Part shown: positions 383-9,314 of the stretch, piece after piece
Position numbering within the stretch: position 1 is the first letter of the stretch
Layout of the letters: each line of letters starts with the position of its first letter
Virus record (IMG/VR): IMGVR_UViG_3300017788_000125
Coordinates: 1-28,925 of that record
DNA: 28,925 bases
From: a virus
Reading direction: 5' to 3' (one strand)
Notes under the pieces: model-generated
Told to the model about the DNA's origin: nothing
Database searches by the model: none
The model's input: the letters and a program-made list of their open reading frames with translations, nothing else
Position numbers and translations under genes: made by a program

Positions 383-2260
383 TCAGGTTTCACCGTAGTT
401 GTCAGCAACCCCTGATTCACAGGCGATTGGTAAATCAGGACACCAGAGTGGTGGTGTGGACATAATCTCCACAAGAAGTTGCTCTGCGTCTGTCGCCTCT
501 GACTCCGGTGCGGTGATGATGACCTCATCGTGAACTTGGAAAGCAACATGGTAGCGTTGCCCGATCTTCGCCATCTGTTCTGCAATGACGATACGAGCCA
601 ATGCCTGAATCAAATTCTCTGTGACCTTGCCGCCGTAGATTTTTGTCCAGTTAATTTCCTTGACCTCGCCAGTCATCACCCTCGCCTCAATTGCCTTCTT
701 AAACTCTCGGGCATCTGCGATGTAGTAGAACTGGTTGCCGTCTGTACGCAAGGCAGGGTAGCGTATGCGCAGGGTGTTGGGCAGTATGATGCCGTCGCTA
801 TCATAGGGAATCCAATCAACGATCTCGCCGCTGACTTGTGCCACCATGTTGTTGAGCGCGTTGCCGCACTTCTGCCACAGTTGCACGATCTTCCAATTCT
901 TTGCTCGGTACAGACGCACAATCCTGTCGGCTTCGTTGAGGTCGATCTTCACAGAGATACCGCCCTGTCCGATCTCAAGGGTGCGCCTGAACTTCTCAGC
1001 ACCCATGCCGTAACCTAAGCCAAGTATGCAGGTCTTACCTACGAACCGCTCGACCTTATCTGCCTTGGTTATCTTGCGACCATAGACCTCGGTGGCGAAC
1101 TCAGAGTACACATCCCGCCCCTCCGCGAACGCTTGGATTAAGTCCTCTTGCCCTGCGACATGGGCAACCATGCGGGCCTCGATCTGTGAACTATCACAGG
1201 CAATGATCTTGTGGTTTGGTGGTGCTTTGAGTGCGCGTCGGATGGAGTTGTTGCCACGAGCAGGTAGGTTCTGTAGGTTGAGTTTGTCCCCGCCGCTGAA
1301 CCGACCAGTGTGTGCGCCGTAGTAGTTGAGCATGATGGGCAAGCGACCACGCTTTGCCACCCCGAGCAGTGCTTCTGTTCGGGTTTCTTCGATGGTTGAT
1401 TTGACTCCAAGCCGAGCGGATACCGCAGTCTGCACACGCTCATCAGGATGTTCCAGTAAGTCGGTGAACTCTTTGTCGGTCTTGGAAAAGGCAAAGGCTT
1501 CCTTGCCTGTGCGTAGGCTTACCTTTGTGGGAGGGGTGACGCCAAGATTCTGTAGGTACTTGGCGAATATCTGATTGCTCATCAGGGTCTTGGTGATTGT
1601 CTCGTCGGCAATACCTGTCAGCCCCATGTCGTCTAACAACTTCTTCTTGTTTAGTTTGACTTGGTTCAGGTGCGCTAGTAGTACCCCACTATCCAGTTCA
1701 ATGACTGGCTCGGTGTACATGCGTAGGGTTTGGTCGATGACCATGAGTTCGGATACAGGGAATCCCTTGCTCAGTTTCTTGAACAAGTTGTAGGTCAACT
1801 CCACATCGTTGATGCAGTACTCACCATAACTAGCAAGTTCTTGTGGTGTGAAATCCTCTCGATGCTTGCCGACGGCATTGAGAACTTCAGTCCCCTTCTG
1901 TCCTAATCCGTAGTAATTTGCTAGGGCTTTCAGGCTACCACCCACAGTCATGTTGTGGAGTGGTCGTGCCATGCTCAGGGTATCGAGCCACAGTTTCGGT
2001 TTGATTCCGAAATGCCATGAGAGTATCGCACCATCGAACGCGGTGTGATGGCAGAGGATTGCCTTGTCTCGGTAGTCAAGACTGTTGAGGAACTTACCTA
2101 CATTCTCACCCGAGTACCAGTCGATTTGGTAGTTGTTGACCTTGACGCCCACACCAATAACCTCAAACTGCGGGCTACGGATGTAGGCTTCGGTGGTCAT
2201 CTTCGACAGAGAGAACTCCCTGTCGTAGTAGGTTTCAAAATCGATTGTTACTATGTCCAT
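383..2260 (-). CDS. Family A DNA polymerase with 3'-5' exonuclease
   Basis: This 625-aa replicative polymerase has no 5'-3' exonuclease domain. The N-terminal DEDDy-type proofreading domain shows Exo I DFET (Asp7, Glu9), Exo II around HTAFD (Asp76) and Exo III YCIND (Tyr148, Asp152). The polymerase domain shows TGRFSGG...LNLQNLP (residues 318-333), motif A DSSQIEAR (Asp356), motif B RFVGKTCILGLGYG (Arg405, Lys409, Tyr417) and motif C HDE (577-579). All catalytic residues are present. The residue aligned with E. coli Phe762 (T7 Tyr526) is Leu413. The ATG at 2260 overlaps the end of the upstream gene by 10 nt and has a weak Shine-Dalgarno sequence, so translational coupling is likely. It is slightly shorter than T7 gp5. 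Confidence 0.97.
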   Translation of the reverse strand: MDIVTIDFETYYDREFSLSKMTTEAYIRSPQFEVIGVGVKVNNYQIDWYSGENVGKFLNSLDYRDKAILCHHTAFDGAILSWHFGIKPKLWLDTLSMARPLHNMTVGGSLKALANYYGLGQKGTEVLNAVGKHREDFTPQELASYGEYCINDVELTYNLFKKLSKGFPVSELMVIDQTLRMYTEPVIELDSGVLLAHLNQVKLNKKKLLDDMGLTGIADETITKTLMSNQIFAKYLQNLGVTPPTKVSLRTGKEAFAFSKTDKEFTDLLEHPDERVQTAVSARLGVKSTIEETRTEALLGVAKRGRLPIMLNYYGAHTGRFSGGDKLNLQNLPARGNNSIRRALKAPPNHKIIACDSSQIEARMVAHVAGQEDLIQAFAEGRDVYSEFATEVYGRKITKADKVERFVGKTCILGLGYGMGAEKFRRTLEIGQGGISVKIDLNEADRIVRLYRAKNWKIVQLWQKCGNALNNMVAQVSGEIVDWIPYDSDGIILPNTLRIRYPALRTDGNQFYYIADAREFKKAIEARVMTGEVKEINWTKIYGGKVTENLIQALARIVIAEQMAKIGQRYHVAFQVHDEVIITAPESEATDAEQLLVEIMSTPPLWCPDLPIACESGVADNYGET

Positions 2261-4926: not shown

Positions 4927-5562
4927 TTATCGTGTGATCTTATTGGCAACAACGGCGGCAGTCAATGCACCAAGGTCTACCTGTACATCAACCTCTTTCT
5001 TGGTGCGCTCCACTATTTCGCGGTGCTTCTCCTTGTACTTTTGAGGAATCAAATCCCACAGTGGAGGCCACATCTTTAGGGCAGGTGAGAGAGTAGCGTG
5101 TGCATCGATGATCTTCTTAACCTGAGCGACAAACTCATCGCGCTTTTTAGCCACCGCATCGCATCGCTCACGCCATGCAACAACCTCTGCCTTCAACTCA
5201 GCCCATGCAGGATGATCTCTGAGGATGATATCGGCACTGTTGTAACTACTGTTGGACTTAGCGTACTCAGTATCGGCAAATTTAGGAGGCCAAGGCTTAG
5301 GTGTAGCGAGGGTAAAGCGCAGACTACATCGCATATCTCCAACCTTACTGATCTCCATCTGCTCAACCATAGACAAGAACTCCTGCGGTACTGCGTTTAA
5401 TACCGCAACATGTTGCCCATACAACACCTCATAAACCCTCTCACCCCATACAGTAGGGTCAGGGCGAGAGTCTTGCGCCGCTTGCAATTGCTTGTCGAAT
5501 ACTAGCCGAGCATTGCGCACAATCTCCTCTTGCAATTCCTTACTGAATCTTACTGTTGCCAT
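4927..5562 (-). CDS. Hypothetical protein, possibly Nmad5-like
   Basis: A 211-aa protein. The ATG at 5562 has AAGGAG at ideal spacing; an upstream in-frame start is not supported. The layout is an N-terminal helix (FSKELQEEIVRNARLVFDKQLQAA), then VYEVLYG, then a short beta region with a Pro/Trp-rich stretch (PKPWPP), then a long helical or coiled-coil region and a C-terminal tail. This resembles what I recall of the Nmad5 (putative nucleotide-modification-associated) family in phages. That match is from memory and unverified, so the function is left open. Confidence 0.55.
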   Translation of the reverse strand: MATVRFSKELQEEIVRNARLVFDKQLQAAQDSRPDPTVWGERVYEVLYGQHVAVLNAVPQEFLSMVEQMEISKVGDMRCSLRFTLATPKPWPPKFADTEYAKSNSSYNSADIILRDHPAWAELKAEVVAWRERCDAVAKKRDEFVAQVKKIIDAHATLSPALKMWPPLWDLIPQKYKEKHREIVERTKKEVDVQVDLGALTAAVVANKITR

Positions 5563-6130
5563 GTTCTTCTCCTTCGTTAAGTTCGTTGGCTTCAATCGCT
5601 TCCCATACTGCCTCGTCACTGGTCAGATGGTCATAGTCCCGCTCTAACTCTCGGTACAACTCCCGCATGTGCCGCCTGAATATCTCTTTACTGGCATCCG
5701 TAAACTCCTCCATCTCGTAACTGCGTGCCTCATCCCACGCCTCAACGATCTGCTCGTGGAAGTCTGTCGTGATAGGTAAGATATAGGCAAAGATATCGCT
5801 GTCTATATTGAAAGCAACACAGTTCTCGTGGTAGTAGTGCCCGCAATGCCGACAATGAAACTTCACATCACCACCATGCTCTAACAACTTGCGTATCATC
5901 GGGTACTCATCAGGCTTGAAGTTCACCTCCACGAACTTCTTGGTGTCCTTGATGAATCCCTCAAAACATGCACCATCACCTTGGCTACAGAACCCTGAGA
6001 AGTGTATGTCCGTAACCAAGATACCCTGCTCTAACATCCGCTCCCCAAACTCATCGTAGGTGTGATCCCACCATGCACCACACTCGACATTGAAGTAGCG
6101 GTACTTCTCAATGAGTTGCGCCTTGTCCAT
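5540..6130 (-). CDS. Conserved phage hypothetical protein with Cys/His cluster
   Basis: A 196-aa acidic protein. Residues about 41-58 (DIHFSGFCSQGDGACFEG) match a signature seen in many phage proteins of unknown role (usually F-x-QGDGA). CRHCGHYYHENC (residues 93-104) is a compact Cys/His cluster that may bind zinc. The C-terminus is a long acidic helix. The ATG at 6130 overlaps the TGA of the metallopeptidase gene (TGATG), so translation is probably coupled to it. It overlaps the next gene by 23 nt. Confidence 0.7.
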   Translation of the reverse strand: MDKAQLIEKYRYFNVECGAWWDHTYDEFGERMLEQGILVTDIHFSGFCSQGDGACFEGFIKDTKKFVEVNFKPDEYPMIRKLLEHGGDVKFHCRHCGHYYHENCVAFNIDSDIFAYILPITTDFHEQIVEAWDEARSYEMEEFTDASKEIFRRHMRELYRELERDYDHLTSDEAVWEAIEANELNEGEEHGNSKIQ

Positions 6131-7302
6131 CACATCAACACCACTTCACCGAATGGTGCTTCGTTCTCGTGTGTGGATACCCACAGTACTGGATACTCAG
6201 GCTGATCTCCGAAGTCATCGCAGTACAAGTCAGTCAGAAAGACACAGGCAACTGGCTCGATGTTGTTGGTTGCGAGATACTCAAAGACGGGGCTGAAGGC
6301 AGTACCGCCGCCACCATGGGGTGCAAATTGAAGTTCATCATCACGCCCAAACCGATCGTAGTGGCAGACTTCGCTATCAAAATAAACAACATGAATCGCA
6401 CTGGGGTTCCCTTCTTCTTTAACGGCACGAATCTCTGCCGCGAACTGGTTGAGTTCCGCTTCACCGATAGACCCTGAGCAGTCAATCGCAAAGGCAATCT
6501 CGCCGAGCCGCTCACCATTGGCAGTGGGCAAGTACAATCCTTGCGACAGGAAGCGGCGGTTAGGTCTAGCGAATGAGCGGGTATCGTCTTTACACTTCTC
6601 GATGAAGCGGCGTAGCACATCACGCCAATCAACCTTGGGTTGCAATATCTCACCGACAAACCGCTCGATACTGGCAGACAACTTGCCCATCATCTTCGCC
6701 GCTTGAGCGGCCTGTGCTACTCGCACCTTCCACTCGGCGGCTTCCTGTGCCTGTTCAGCAGGACTACCATCACCATCTTGGCAGTCATCAAGCGGGTCGC
6801 CACCGCCACTTCCATCATCGTCAGGCAGGATGTTGTAGATGCCATCAGTTGTACCGCCACCTGCTTGGTGCAGTTGAGGGTCTAGCAGACCGCCTTCAAT
6901 CATCTTGCCAATGCCTTCGTCAGTCAGCAGTTGGTTAATCACATAGTCACCTGCCTGATTCCACTTGCGTGGGTCACGCCCTCCTCGTCTGAAGGGATGC
7001 TCAAGCATGGGGTGAAAGCACTCGTGTGCTACCAAGAACTTTACTTCCTCGTCAGTTAACGCCTCGACAAAGCGAGGGTTGTAGACAATGTGCTTGCCGT
7101 TGGTTGCCGCCGTAGGTATCTCATCGTTGAACTCAAAGGGCATGTTCAAAGCGATCGTACCCACGAACGGATGCTCCAAGACCAAGGCAGTACGAGCCTT
7201 GATGATGCGCTTGTATTGCACCGCCTTCTGTGCATCAGTCAGCGGTGTCATGTCGGCATACTTGGTGTTATGCACGACAGAGTTAGGTGCAAGTGTGGTC
7301 AT
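6130..7302 (-). CDS. VWA-like / putative metallopeptidase (DUF2201 type)
   Basis: This 390-aa protein combines two domains. Residues about 20-135 are a DUF2201_N-type metallopeptidase-like domain with HECFH (93-97) and a downstream GDYVIN segment that could give a third metal ligand. A Gly/Asp-rich linker (about 145-185) follows. Residues about 265-390 are a von Willebrand A-like domain with the MIDAS motif DCSGS (274-278), Thr334 and Asp358, all present. Such proteins are regularly paired with MoxR AAA ATPases, as here (8331-9314), in putative chaperone or protease-like assemblies. The ATG overlaps the end of the 52-aa gene (ATGA). Substrate unknown. Confidence 0.9.
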   Translation of the reverse strand: MTTLAPNSVVHNTKYADMTPLTDAQKAVQYKRIIKARTALVLEHPFVGTIALNMPFEFNDEIPTAATNGKHIVYNPRFVEALTDEEVKFLVAHECFHPMLEHPFRRGGRDPRKWNQAGDYVINQLLTDEGIGKMIEGGLLDPQLHQAGGGTTDGIYNILPDDDGSGGGDPLDDCQDGDGSPAEQAQEAAEWKVRVAQAAQAAKMMGKLSASIERFVGEILQPKVDWRDVLRRFIEKCKDDTRSFARPNRRFLSQGLYLPTANGERLGEIAFAIDCSGSIGEAELNQFAAEIRAVKEEGNPSAIHVVYFDSEVCHYDRFGRDDELQFAPHGGGGTAFSPVFEYLATNNIEPVACVFLTDLYCDDFGDQPEYPVLWVSTHENEAPFGEVVLM

Positions 7303-7457
7303 TTCACTTCTCCTTCCAATGTTTTAATTAAGTCATTGCGTATGCGGTTGAGTTCTGCATCGGACAAGTCCAACTCTTCACCAATCTCATCAAAGTTCAT
7401 GGCTAACCCAACCCGCGCTATCTCCAACACAGTCACTAGATCTTCTTGACTAATCAC
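7299..7457 (-). CDS. Small helical protein (52 aa) in the MoxR/VWA module
   Basis: This starts at a GTG at 7457, just after the TAA of the upstream gene, with GGGAG 7 nt upstream. The frame runs open further upstream but only across the neighbouring gene. The product (ISQEDLVTVLEIARVGLAMN..., then EELDLSDAELNRIRNDL) is predicted to be all helix and resembles a small helical adaptor or helix-turn-helix. It is wedged between the 282-aa protein and the VWA protein with a 4-nt overlap, so it is probably made in proportion to them. No family recognised. Confidence 0.65.
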   Translation of the reverse strand: MISQEDLVTVLEIARVGLAMNFDEIGEELDLSDAELNRIRNDLIKTLEGEVK

Positions 7458-7458
7458 T

Positions 7459-8307
7459 TTACGCTCCCATAAAGACGGACATTTTGTCCATGATTGCCTT
7501 CGCTTCAGCCGCAGTATCACGGCGCAGGTCAGGGTCGTTACGCAAGGCATCGGGATGATGCGATGCAAGGGTTCCCTCAACTTGTTGCCGTAAGGTTTCA
7601 AGGTTCGGGTCATCCATGAAGTTAAGCCGCGACAACATGGAGCACTGCTCTTGTAAGTTTTCCACTAGCGTATCCCTGAAGATCGCCTTGGGGTCAGCCA
7701 ACTTCTCAGCCATGTGCTTCACTCGGTCATACAGTCGAGTCCATACTTCCTTCATGGCGGTAGCCTGCGCATCTGCAACACGCTTCTCAACATCTTGCTG
7801 GATGCGTGACAGTTCATCGGATGCAATCGCACACCTGAAGTCAGTAGCAGGTACAGGGAACACCGCCATGTCAATACTAAACTTGCGACTTACATCTGTA
7901 AGAGTGGGGTAGTCGGCGTCGTTGTATAGCCCGCCTAGTACCCGCTTGGCATCCTCTCGCAACTGATCGTAGTTGCCAACGAACTGGTCTACTAAAGCCT
8001 GCCACTCGTTCTTCTCCTTCCTGAAGTCAGTCATAAACTGCAAGTAGTTGGTAGTCGGGAGCATCATGGTTCCCTCGATACCCCATGGCAGGGTGTTCTT
8101 GTAGAACTTCTCACGGATGAATGTGGTTTTCTTATGCACCCGATCAAGGTAGTCGTTCATGGGTAGCAACGACTTGTTGTACCGCCCTGCATCCTTGGCG
8201 GTGTTGAAGGCACTGGCAACTTCTTGGGTTGCCTTCTTGTCATACTTCCTTGCAGTCCATTGGCTGATGGATAACTGTACAAGTAACGCTCGGTCAGATA
8301 GATTCAT
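7459..8307 (-). CDS. DUF3150-like helical protein in the MoxR/VWA module
   Basis: A 282-aa protein beginning MNLSDRALLVQLSISQWTAR at the ATG at 8307; AAGGA is 7 nt upstream, which favours 8307 over the ATG at 8313. The sequence is mostly helical with heptad-like stretches (about 155-215). The opening matches my recollection of DUF3150 proteins that sit beside MoxR-type ATPases in phages; the family name is unverified. Placement between the AAA ATPase and the VWA protein suggests an adaptor or substrate-binding part of the same complex. Confidence 0.75.
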   Translation of the reverse strand: MNLSDRALLVQLSISQWTARKYDKKATQEVASAFNTAKDAGRYNKSLLPMNDYLDRVHKKTTFIREKFYKNTLPWGIEGTMMLPTTNYLQFMTDFRKEKNEWQALVDQFVGNYDQLREDAKRVLGGLYNDADYPTLTDVSRKFSIDMAVFPVPATDFRCAIASDELSRIQQDVEKRVADAQATAMKEVWTRLYDRVKHMAEKLADPKAIFRDTLVENLQEQCSMLSRLNFMDDPNLETLRQQVEGTLASHHPDALRNDPDLRRDTAAEAKAIMDKMSVFMGA

Positions 8308-8330
8308 CGTCATTCCTTTGTCAAGTTAGA

Positions 8331-9314
8331 TTAAAACAGTACATCTTGGTGAGCGATCGACCACTTGGTAAACGCTTGAGTCGAGGCTAACTCAGGCTTC
8401 TTACGGACTGCATACGAGATAGTGAGAACGCTGAAGTCACCATCCATCCGCTCGGCATAGGTACAGACCCTATCAAAGTTCGCCTCGGTAGCCCGCTCTG
8501 CCAATGCACCACTCAAGGCGTACTTAGTCATCGGGTCTTTAGGCACTTCGCTAGTGGTCGGGTTAAGCAGTAGCGCATCAGGGTTAGGCAGGGTACGGAA
8601 TATCTTTACGAAGCCAACGAACTCAGCCGCCGCACCCTCACCTACTGCACCCTTAAAGCACTCGTACTCTGCATCATGGGGGACTACACCAAGCACATCG
8701 GACACACCCTCAACCCATGAACGAGGCGTTGGATTGCTCTCTCGCTGAGGGTCAAAGTCATGGAGCAAGTTGGTTCTAAAGCGCAGGAACGCCACGACTT
8801 CAGGCTTCACCCCATGGTCAATCATCCATGTTGTCGAGTCATCGAGGTGTGTTTCAAACTCAATGACAGTCTCGCGGTTACGGAGGTGAGAGAGAATCTT
8901 GTTAGCACCTGCCTTATCCGACTGTCTGTTGCCAGTTGATACGACCTGCCACCCATCGGGCATAGCCTCACCATGTAAAGTCCGTGCTTGACAGATGTTA
9001 GCCAGTACTTTCTGAAGGTCAGAACTTGCTTGGTTGCGGTCATCGAATAACAGGATACCGCGCTCAGGTGCTTTGCCTTTGATAGGAAACCACTCAGGCA
9101 ACTTGTAATGCAGGTAGTCACCATTGAGCATCGGGATACCGAAGTCCTCGACAAGCATGGTCGGCATGTGTACCTCGCGGCACTCCACACCCAGTTCCTT
9201 GGCAACATCTTTGACAATGGTTGTCTTACCACCGCCGGGAGCACCCTCAACCGCAACAGTACGACGGATGGGAAACATAGCGTGTAAGGTTTCTTTGAGT
9301 TTACTGGCTCGCAT
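8331..9314 (-). CDS. MoxR-type AAA ATPase
   Basis: A 327-aa AAA+ ATPase of the MoxR/CobS/dynein-related (AAA_5) group. Walker A is GAPGGGKT (24-31), Walker B is ILLFDD (87-92), with Asp in place of the usual Glu after the first Asp, and sensor 1 is STGN (about 126-129). A helical lid follows. MoxR ATPases form rings that remodel partners through VWA-domain proteins; a VWA-metallopeptidase lies two genes downstream. ATG 9314 has AAGGAG 8 nt upstream and overlaps the TAA of the 55-aa gene (TAATG). Distinct from a replicative helicase: no RecA-like or primase features. Confidence 0.92.
   Translation of the reverse strand: MRASKLKETLHAMFPIRRTVAVEGAPGGGKTTIVKDVAKELGVECREVHMPTMLVEDFGIPMLNGDYLHYKLPEWFPIKGKAPERGILLFDDRNQASSDLQKVLANICQARTLHGEAMPDGWQVVSTGNRQSDKAGANKILSHLRNRETVIEFETHLDDSTTWMIDHGVKPEVVAFLRFRTNLLHDFDPQRESNPTPRSWVEGVSDVLGVVPHDAEYECFKGAVGEGAAAEFVGFVKIFRTLPNPDALLLNPTTSEVPKDPMTKYALSGALAERATEANFDRVCTYAERMDGDFSVLTISYAVRKKPELASTQAFTKWSIAHQDVLF

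Follow-up and report, generated by a model that had tools for sequence, protein, structure and literature searches.

What does a phage do with a MoxR-type ATPase, a DUF3150-like protein, and a protein that joins a metallopeptidase-like domain to a VWA domain, all encoded on the strand that carries its DNA polymerase gene? This question is raised by a 28,925-base virus record, the whole of which is referred to here as the window. An earlier examination of these letters alone (the sequence-only reading) had described four tightly coupled genes and had put them forward as an undescribed system, for example one for counter-defense or host takeover. Judging from motifs, gene linkage, and conservation, we consider it likely that three of these genes, located on the replication side of the phage genome, encode a three-subunit, ATP-driven protein-remodeling machine of the MoxR/VWA type.

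Gene organization in the window

The minus strand carries polymerase-side genes, and the plus strand carries terminase, portal, and capsid genes from about 13.9 kb. All ORFs of the module lie on the minus strand and are packed closely, at coordinates that agree with the sequence-only reading. The relevant features are as follows:

383-2260, minus strand: family A DNA polymerase, downstream of the module and transcribed in the same direction (replication-side context)
6130-7302, minus strand: DUF2201-type zincin-like metallopeptidase with C-terminal VWA domain, 390 aa (PF13203, PF09967; phrog_1314, as N4 gp25)
7299-7457, minus strand: 52-aa ORF (GTG start codon) that occupies the space between the DUF3150-like gene and the VWA gene
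7459-8313, minus strand: DUF3150-like third subunit, 284 aa (profile-profile comparison and predicted fold)
8331-9314, minus strand: MoxR-type AAA+ ATPase, 327 aa (phrog_1297, as N4 gp24)

A 17-nt spacer separates the MoxR gene from the DUF3150-like gene, which lies 1 nt from the 52-aa ORF. This ORF overlaps the VWA gene by 4 nt, and the stop of the VWA gene overlaps the gene at 5540-6133 by another 4 nt. The close coupling that had been described is therefore real, but only three of the four genes form a unit, since the 52-aa ORF has a counterpart in none of the 67 relatives that span the region. These relatives are loci extending from the MoxR gene to the polymerase gene, compared with the window as reference. 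The small helical 52-aa protein was also without a detectable relative in 50,697 phage records, and we rejected it as a fourth member. The ORF is probably a variable small-ORF insertion that lies outside the machine. At the junction between the DUF3150 and VWA genes, differing small ORFs occur from phage to phage (for example, in loci L089, L090, L093, and L094 and at 7299-7457 of the window), and most relatives have no gap at this position.

The portal and polymerase of the window have their nearest match in Rhizobium phage RHph_TM3_14A, at about 35-37%. We propose that the genome hosting the module is that of a podovirus and that the module sits on its replication side. The labels “lytic-type” and “early,” which had been applied to this gene run, go beyond what the 28.9-kb contig shows. 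The module is adjoined by a gene at 4927-5619 for an Nmad5 (nucleotide modification associated domain 5) protein, which is present in all 67 spanning relatives but evolves fast.

Linkage of the three genes in phages

Among the 50,697 phage records, 719 contain relatives of the VWA protein and 622 contain relatives of the ATPase, all below 60% identity and including N4 gp25 and gp24. Only three relatives of the DUF3150-like protein were found in these records, all of cyanophages. One of these phages, MinM2, carries MoxR, DUF3150, and VWA genes in that order with small genes between them. IMG/VR holds hundreds of DUF3150-like relatives. A survey of gene neighborhoods across phages, which the sequence-only reading had suggested as a check, found the ATPase, DUF3150, and VWA genes together in all 106 IMG/VR loci that are uncut by a contig end, with some contigs counted twice; a further 11 loci are cut by a contig end.

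Because the IMG/VR loci had been found through DUF3150 or MoxR, the survey was repeated starting from the DNA polymerase alone. This yielded 20 loci, each with at least 8.4 kb upstream, in which the VWA gene was found 19 times, the DUF3150 gene 18 times, and the MoxR gene 17 times. Two of the missing MoxR genes fall where the locus ends. The exceptions are L260, with none of the three genes in 8.5 kb, and L271, a 63-kb contig on which the pair is present without DUF3150. Four gene orders were seen (M-D-V, D-M-V, M-V-D, and V-M-D, where the letters stand for MoxR, DUF3150, and VWA), and thus linkage is kept while order changes. A large group of freshwater phages thus carries the three genes as a linked unit. 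One contig binned as actinobacterial (L102) carries a phage-type triad that is 66% identical; it is probably mis-binned phage DNA.

The pair formed by the ATPase and the metallopeptidase-VWA protein is not new. N4 gp24 and gp25, both part of the core gene set of N4-like phages, or Schitoviridae (PMC7650795), are homologous to the two window proteins and are encoded by adjacent genes in the same order. N4 differs from the window in its Walker B motif (DE versus DD) and in that a recognizable DUF3150 gene is absent from its complete genome. The pair likewise occurs without a recognizable DUF3150 gene in Rhizobium phage RHph_TM3_14A and on the 63-kb contig mentioned above. A Rhizobium phage pair lies upstream of DNA polymerase I. 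The third subunit is therefore dispensable somewhere, has been replaced, or is too diverged to be recognized. A MoxR protein paired with a metallopeptidase-fused vWA protein has also been described in group 2.2 jumbo phages by Iyer et al. in 2021 (PMC7824862). That pair shares the two-component architecture of the window, and its vWA protein likewise has an N-terminal metallopeptidase, whereas the passages of that paper that describe it mention no third subunit. The earlier suggestion of an undescribed system thus fails for the pair, as far as these accounts go, and retains some force for the less expected DUF3150 subunit.

Assignment of the third subunit to DUF3150

The Pfam model for DUF3150 (PF11348) scores the window protein at 12.5 bits, below its curated cut-off of 24.9, and it matches 16 of 71 relatives at an E value of 0.01 or better (best, 1.1e-5). 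The assignment is therefore shown only by profile-profile comparison and predicted fold. By the first of these, the window-type group and the true PF11348 group are homologous (hhalign, 97.1%, E value of 5e-11, 233 columns). The predicted fold (pLDDT of 85) has a mixed alpha/beta N-terminal part and a helical-bundle C-terminal part, and among viral folds it is matched best by an uncultured-phage protein annotated as “DUF3150 domain-containing protein” (TM of 0.86). Consequently, the designation “DUF3150-like” fails by Pfam score and holds by profile and fold, and together with the linkage described above the support for a true third member is stronger than the earlier reader could know.

A PF11348 search of five genomes that hold the window-type triad gave no match in any of them, and thus the two DUF3150 groups need separate searches. 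Foldseek/VIA searches with the model revealed no solved structure that is convincingly related; the top matches are generic helical bundles, with scores that helical models would be expected to reach. PDB sequence searches gave nothing useful, and our search of the open-access literature found no paper that names DUF3150.

Functional motifs of the ATPase and the metallopeptidase-VWA protein

The ATPase has the intact Walker A motif that had been reported for it (GAPGGGKT from residue 24, G24-T31), a Walker B motif of ILLFDD (D91, D92), a sensor-1 TGN, R147, PTPRSW, and R198. The conserved residues K30, D91, N129, R147, and R198 correspond to Walker A, Walker B, sensor 1, the arginine finger, and the sensor 2 arginine, respectively. 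The second Walker B acid is D rather than E, as the sequence-only reading had pointed out, but this feature is not special to the window. All 100 close viral sequences in the alignment have DD, as do most Burkholderiales copies and plasmids. Overall, 47 of 74 bacterial sequences have D at the second position, and the other bacterial copies have E there. DD is therefore a lineage feature, and we ruled it out as a peculiarity of the window phage. DE is found in N4, in MinM2, and in more distant phages that bear DUF3150; since divergent phages with DUF3150 have DE, DD does not track DUF3150 either. The substitution could mean that hydrolysis is slow or absent.

The VWA protein matches PF13203 (E value of 1.3e-49, 169.7 bits versus a cut-off of 23.2) and PF09967 (E value of 1.2e-26, 93.7 bits versus a cut-off of 26.4), and these two matches together with its HExxH motif identify a DUF2201-type protein. 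Its zincin-like domain contains HECFH at residues 93-97 plus D119, and its VWA domain has a complete MIDAS (D274, S276, S278, T334, and D358, with DCSGS at 274), as had been recognized from the letters. The VWA fold is matched with a Z of about 12. Foldseek also found this fold, and for the zincin part it returned nothing better than a weak match to M. jannaschii selecase. The protein ends with the VWA domain and has no effector domain behind it. All 112 close viral sequences retain the zinc site (H93, E94, H97, and D119), and the MIDAS residues likewise persist except where a sequence is cut.

The zinc site has been lost as a set in Rhodospirillales-type copies (RVVLA, with Q at 119) and in four Paraburkholderia copies (LKVMQ, with Q at 119). 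Both bacterial groups retain the MIDAS, the Walker A motif, and DUF3150. This pattern suggests that ATP-driven VWA remodeling is probably the core of the predicted activity and that proteolysis is probably an optional layer. Inactive-looking metallopeptidase domains occur at loci L097, L118, L120, and L135 and at about 24 Rhodospirillales-type loci (for example, L155-L181), and some of the assemblies that carry them hold several copies.

Relatives on plasmids and in bacteria

A scan of bacterial genomes through DUF3150 identified 80 loci at which MoxR and VWA genes lie alongside unless the contig ends; copies at one locus (L165) are broken. These loci derive mostly from Burkholderiales contigs, with some from Rhodocyclales and Rhizobiales and many from Rhodospirillales-type assemblies. 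Plasmid copies of the window-type set adjoin type IV secretion or PRTRC genes. The closest cellular version is found on Burkholderiales megaplasmids, which encode the same three proteins in the same order, with a DUF2201-type VWA protein, a DUF3150 protein at about 33-40% identity, and Walker B DD as in the window. These sets differ from the window in their plasmid location beside secretion or PRTRC genes and in that some have no zinc site.

True PF11348-type DUF3150 genes are present in 1,173 plasmid records, of which 977 are conjugative. Their products are encoded near AAA_5/CbbQ_C ATPases and CobT- or NorD-type VWA proteins, and also near YqaJ, RecT, and primase genes. The same three kinds of genes, with DUF3150 homologous by profile, thus occur on conjugative plasmids and integrating elements such as IncC and IncP-7 pCAR1. 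The order is AAA-DUF3150-NorD-like VWA in pCAR1, AAA-hypothetical-ssb-bet-exo-DUF3150-VWA in IncC, and AAA-DUF3150-VWA in two further plasmids. In the pCAR1 version, unlike the window, the VWA protein does not match DUF2201, the ATPase carries a CbbQ C-terminal domain, and the sequences are very distant (E values of 1.6e-7 for the MoxR profile and 0.003 for the DUF3150 profile). The IncC version differs in that ssb, bet, and exo are interspersed among the module genes. It has been reported that pCAR1 ORF100-103, which include the MoxR and VWA genes, are conserved in R478, Rts1, SXT, and R391 (PMC2642839). On the IncC plasmid pVPS114 (231-8255 of locus L311), ssb, bet, and a lambda-type exonuclease gene are flanked by the AAA gene on one side and by the DUF3150 and VWA genes on the other, an arrangement that suggests a link to recombination.

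Conservation and selection

MoxR has a median identity to the window of 76% across the 67 spanning loci, compared with 74% for DUF3150, 65% for VWA, and 75.5% for the polymerase; the values for two neighboring genes are 44% and 37%. A 197-aa neighbor is present in 28 of these loci. Median dN/dS is 0.10-0.14 for the three module genes, 0.10 for the polymerase, and 0.16-0.20 for the neighbors, after pairs with saturated dS were dropped, which leaves few pairs for two of the neighbors. All three module genes are under purifying selection. Given the low dN/dS and the identities of MoxR and DUF3150 near the polymerase level, this is the pattern of core genes.

Proposed function and alternatives

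The intact nucleotide, MIDAS, and zinc motifs and the gene linkage support a functional MoxR/VWA module, as had been proposed. We infer that the three products form a complex. In this complex, the MoxR ring would hydrolyze ATP, and the VWA subunit would use its metal-filled MIDAS to grip a client at an acidic residue or peptide and couple this client to the ring. The DUF3150-like subunit might serve as a dedicated third component that bridges the ring and the VWA protein or presents the client, which the zincin domain could then trim or cleave. Our open-access literature search found neither biochemistry of the module proteins nor a functional study of N4 gp24/gp25. Because the genes sit on the polymerase strand and plasmid versions repeatedly lie near replication and recombination genes, we suggest, tentatively and with synteny as weak evidence, that the client comes from the DNA replication or recombination apparatus of the element itself. 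In a broader and still more speculative form of this proposal, AAA-DUF3150-VWA would be a general mobile-DNA remodeling machine common to phages, conjugative plasmids, and integrating elements. It would act on the replication or recombination complexes of the element that encodes it (such as those of the SSB/Bet/Exo-type IncC neighbors), and the metallopeptidase would be an optional module for processing the client.

The pair might instead be a virion-assembly chaperone that folds or matures a structural protein, with the peptidase processing it. Such a role was proposed for the jumbo-phage pair, by analogy to Acidianus two-tailed virus, in the portion of that report concerned with it (PMC7824862). 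In general, phages often process their virion proteins. However, the module lies on the polymerase strand, opposite the terminase, portal, and capsid genes of the window, and N4 gp24/gp25 are middle genes (PMC4193335). Moreover, plasmids and bacterial genomes, from which no virion is built, also carry the AAA-DUF3150-VWA set, which makes this role unlikely. Somewhat less probable again is the earlier suggestion of counter-defense or host takeover, by which the machine would unfold or cleave a host defense or regulatory protein. Its replication-side location and intact peptidase and ATPase motifs would fit, and MoxR-VWA pairs do occur in ternary conflict systems, which combine MoxR, vWA, and a third protein (Kaur et al. 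2020, PMC7159879). In those systems, however, the third protein is VMAP, iSTAND, or others and the vWA protein carries variable effector domains, whereas Pfam matched no VMAP/iSTAND-type component or effector domain in the three module proteins and the VWA domain has nothing behind it. PADLOC defense models gave nothing beyond a P-loop match to the ATPase, and we rejected a known anti-phage defense system on this basis. The genes are also near-universal rather than patchy in the phage group and evolve slowly, unlike typical accessory counter-defense genes; conservation of the ATPase at the polymerase level, on the polymerase side of the genome, argues against such a gene. We therefore found no positive support for the counter-defense proposal.

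The proposed remodeling machine also has to be weighed against a metal-chelatase-like complex of the CobS/CobT kind, which would insert metal into a cofactor or protein. In chelatases, VWA proteins pair with AAA+ ATPases, and the plasmid relatives match the CobT and CobT_C models. Yet the window, which is a genome fragment, contains no CobN-type large subunit; its largest ORFs, of 625 and 677 aa, are the polymerase and portal. We regard this explanation as very improbable. Least probable of all is that the three genes are neutral neighbors linked merely by shared inheritance of the replication module. A single operon-like gene run does hold all three, but their linkage persists across differing phage gene orders and in bacteria and plasmids with different flanking genes.

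Through their common third subunit, two unexplained sets of genes become connected: the core pair of N4-like and jumbo phages and the conserved cassette found on IncC and other conjugative plasmids. A single function could therefore be tested for both in laboratory systems that are easy to work with.

Our analysis also bears on annotation. In PHROGs, phrog_1314 is labeled “HNH endonuclease,” and many phage records call these proteins “HNH endonuclease” or “homing endonuclease.” The window VWA protein has no HNH match in Pfam, and the domain assignments given above correct this misleading annotation of the VWA-metallopeptidase family.
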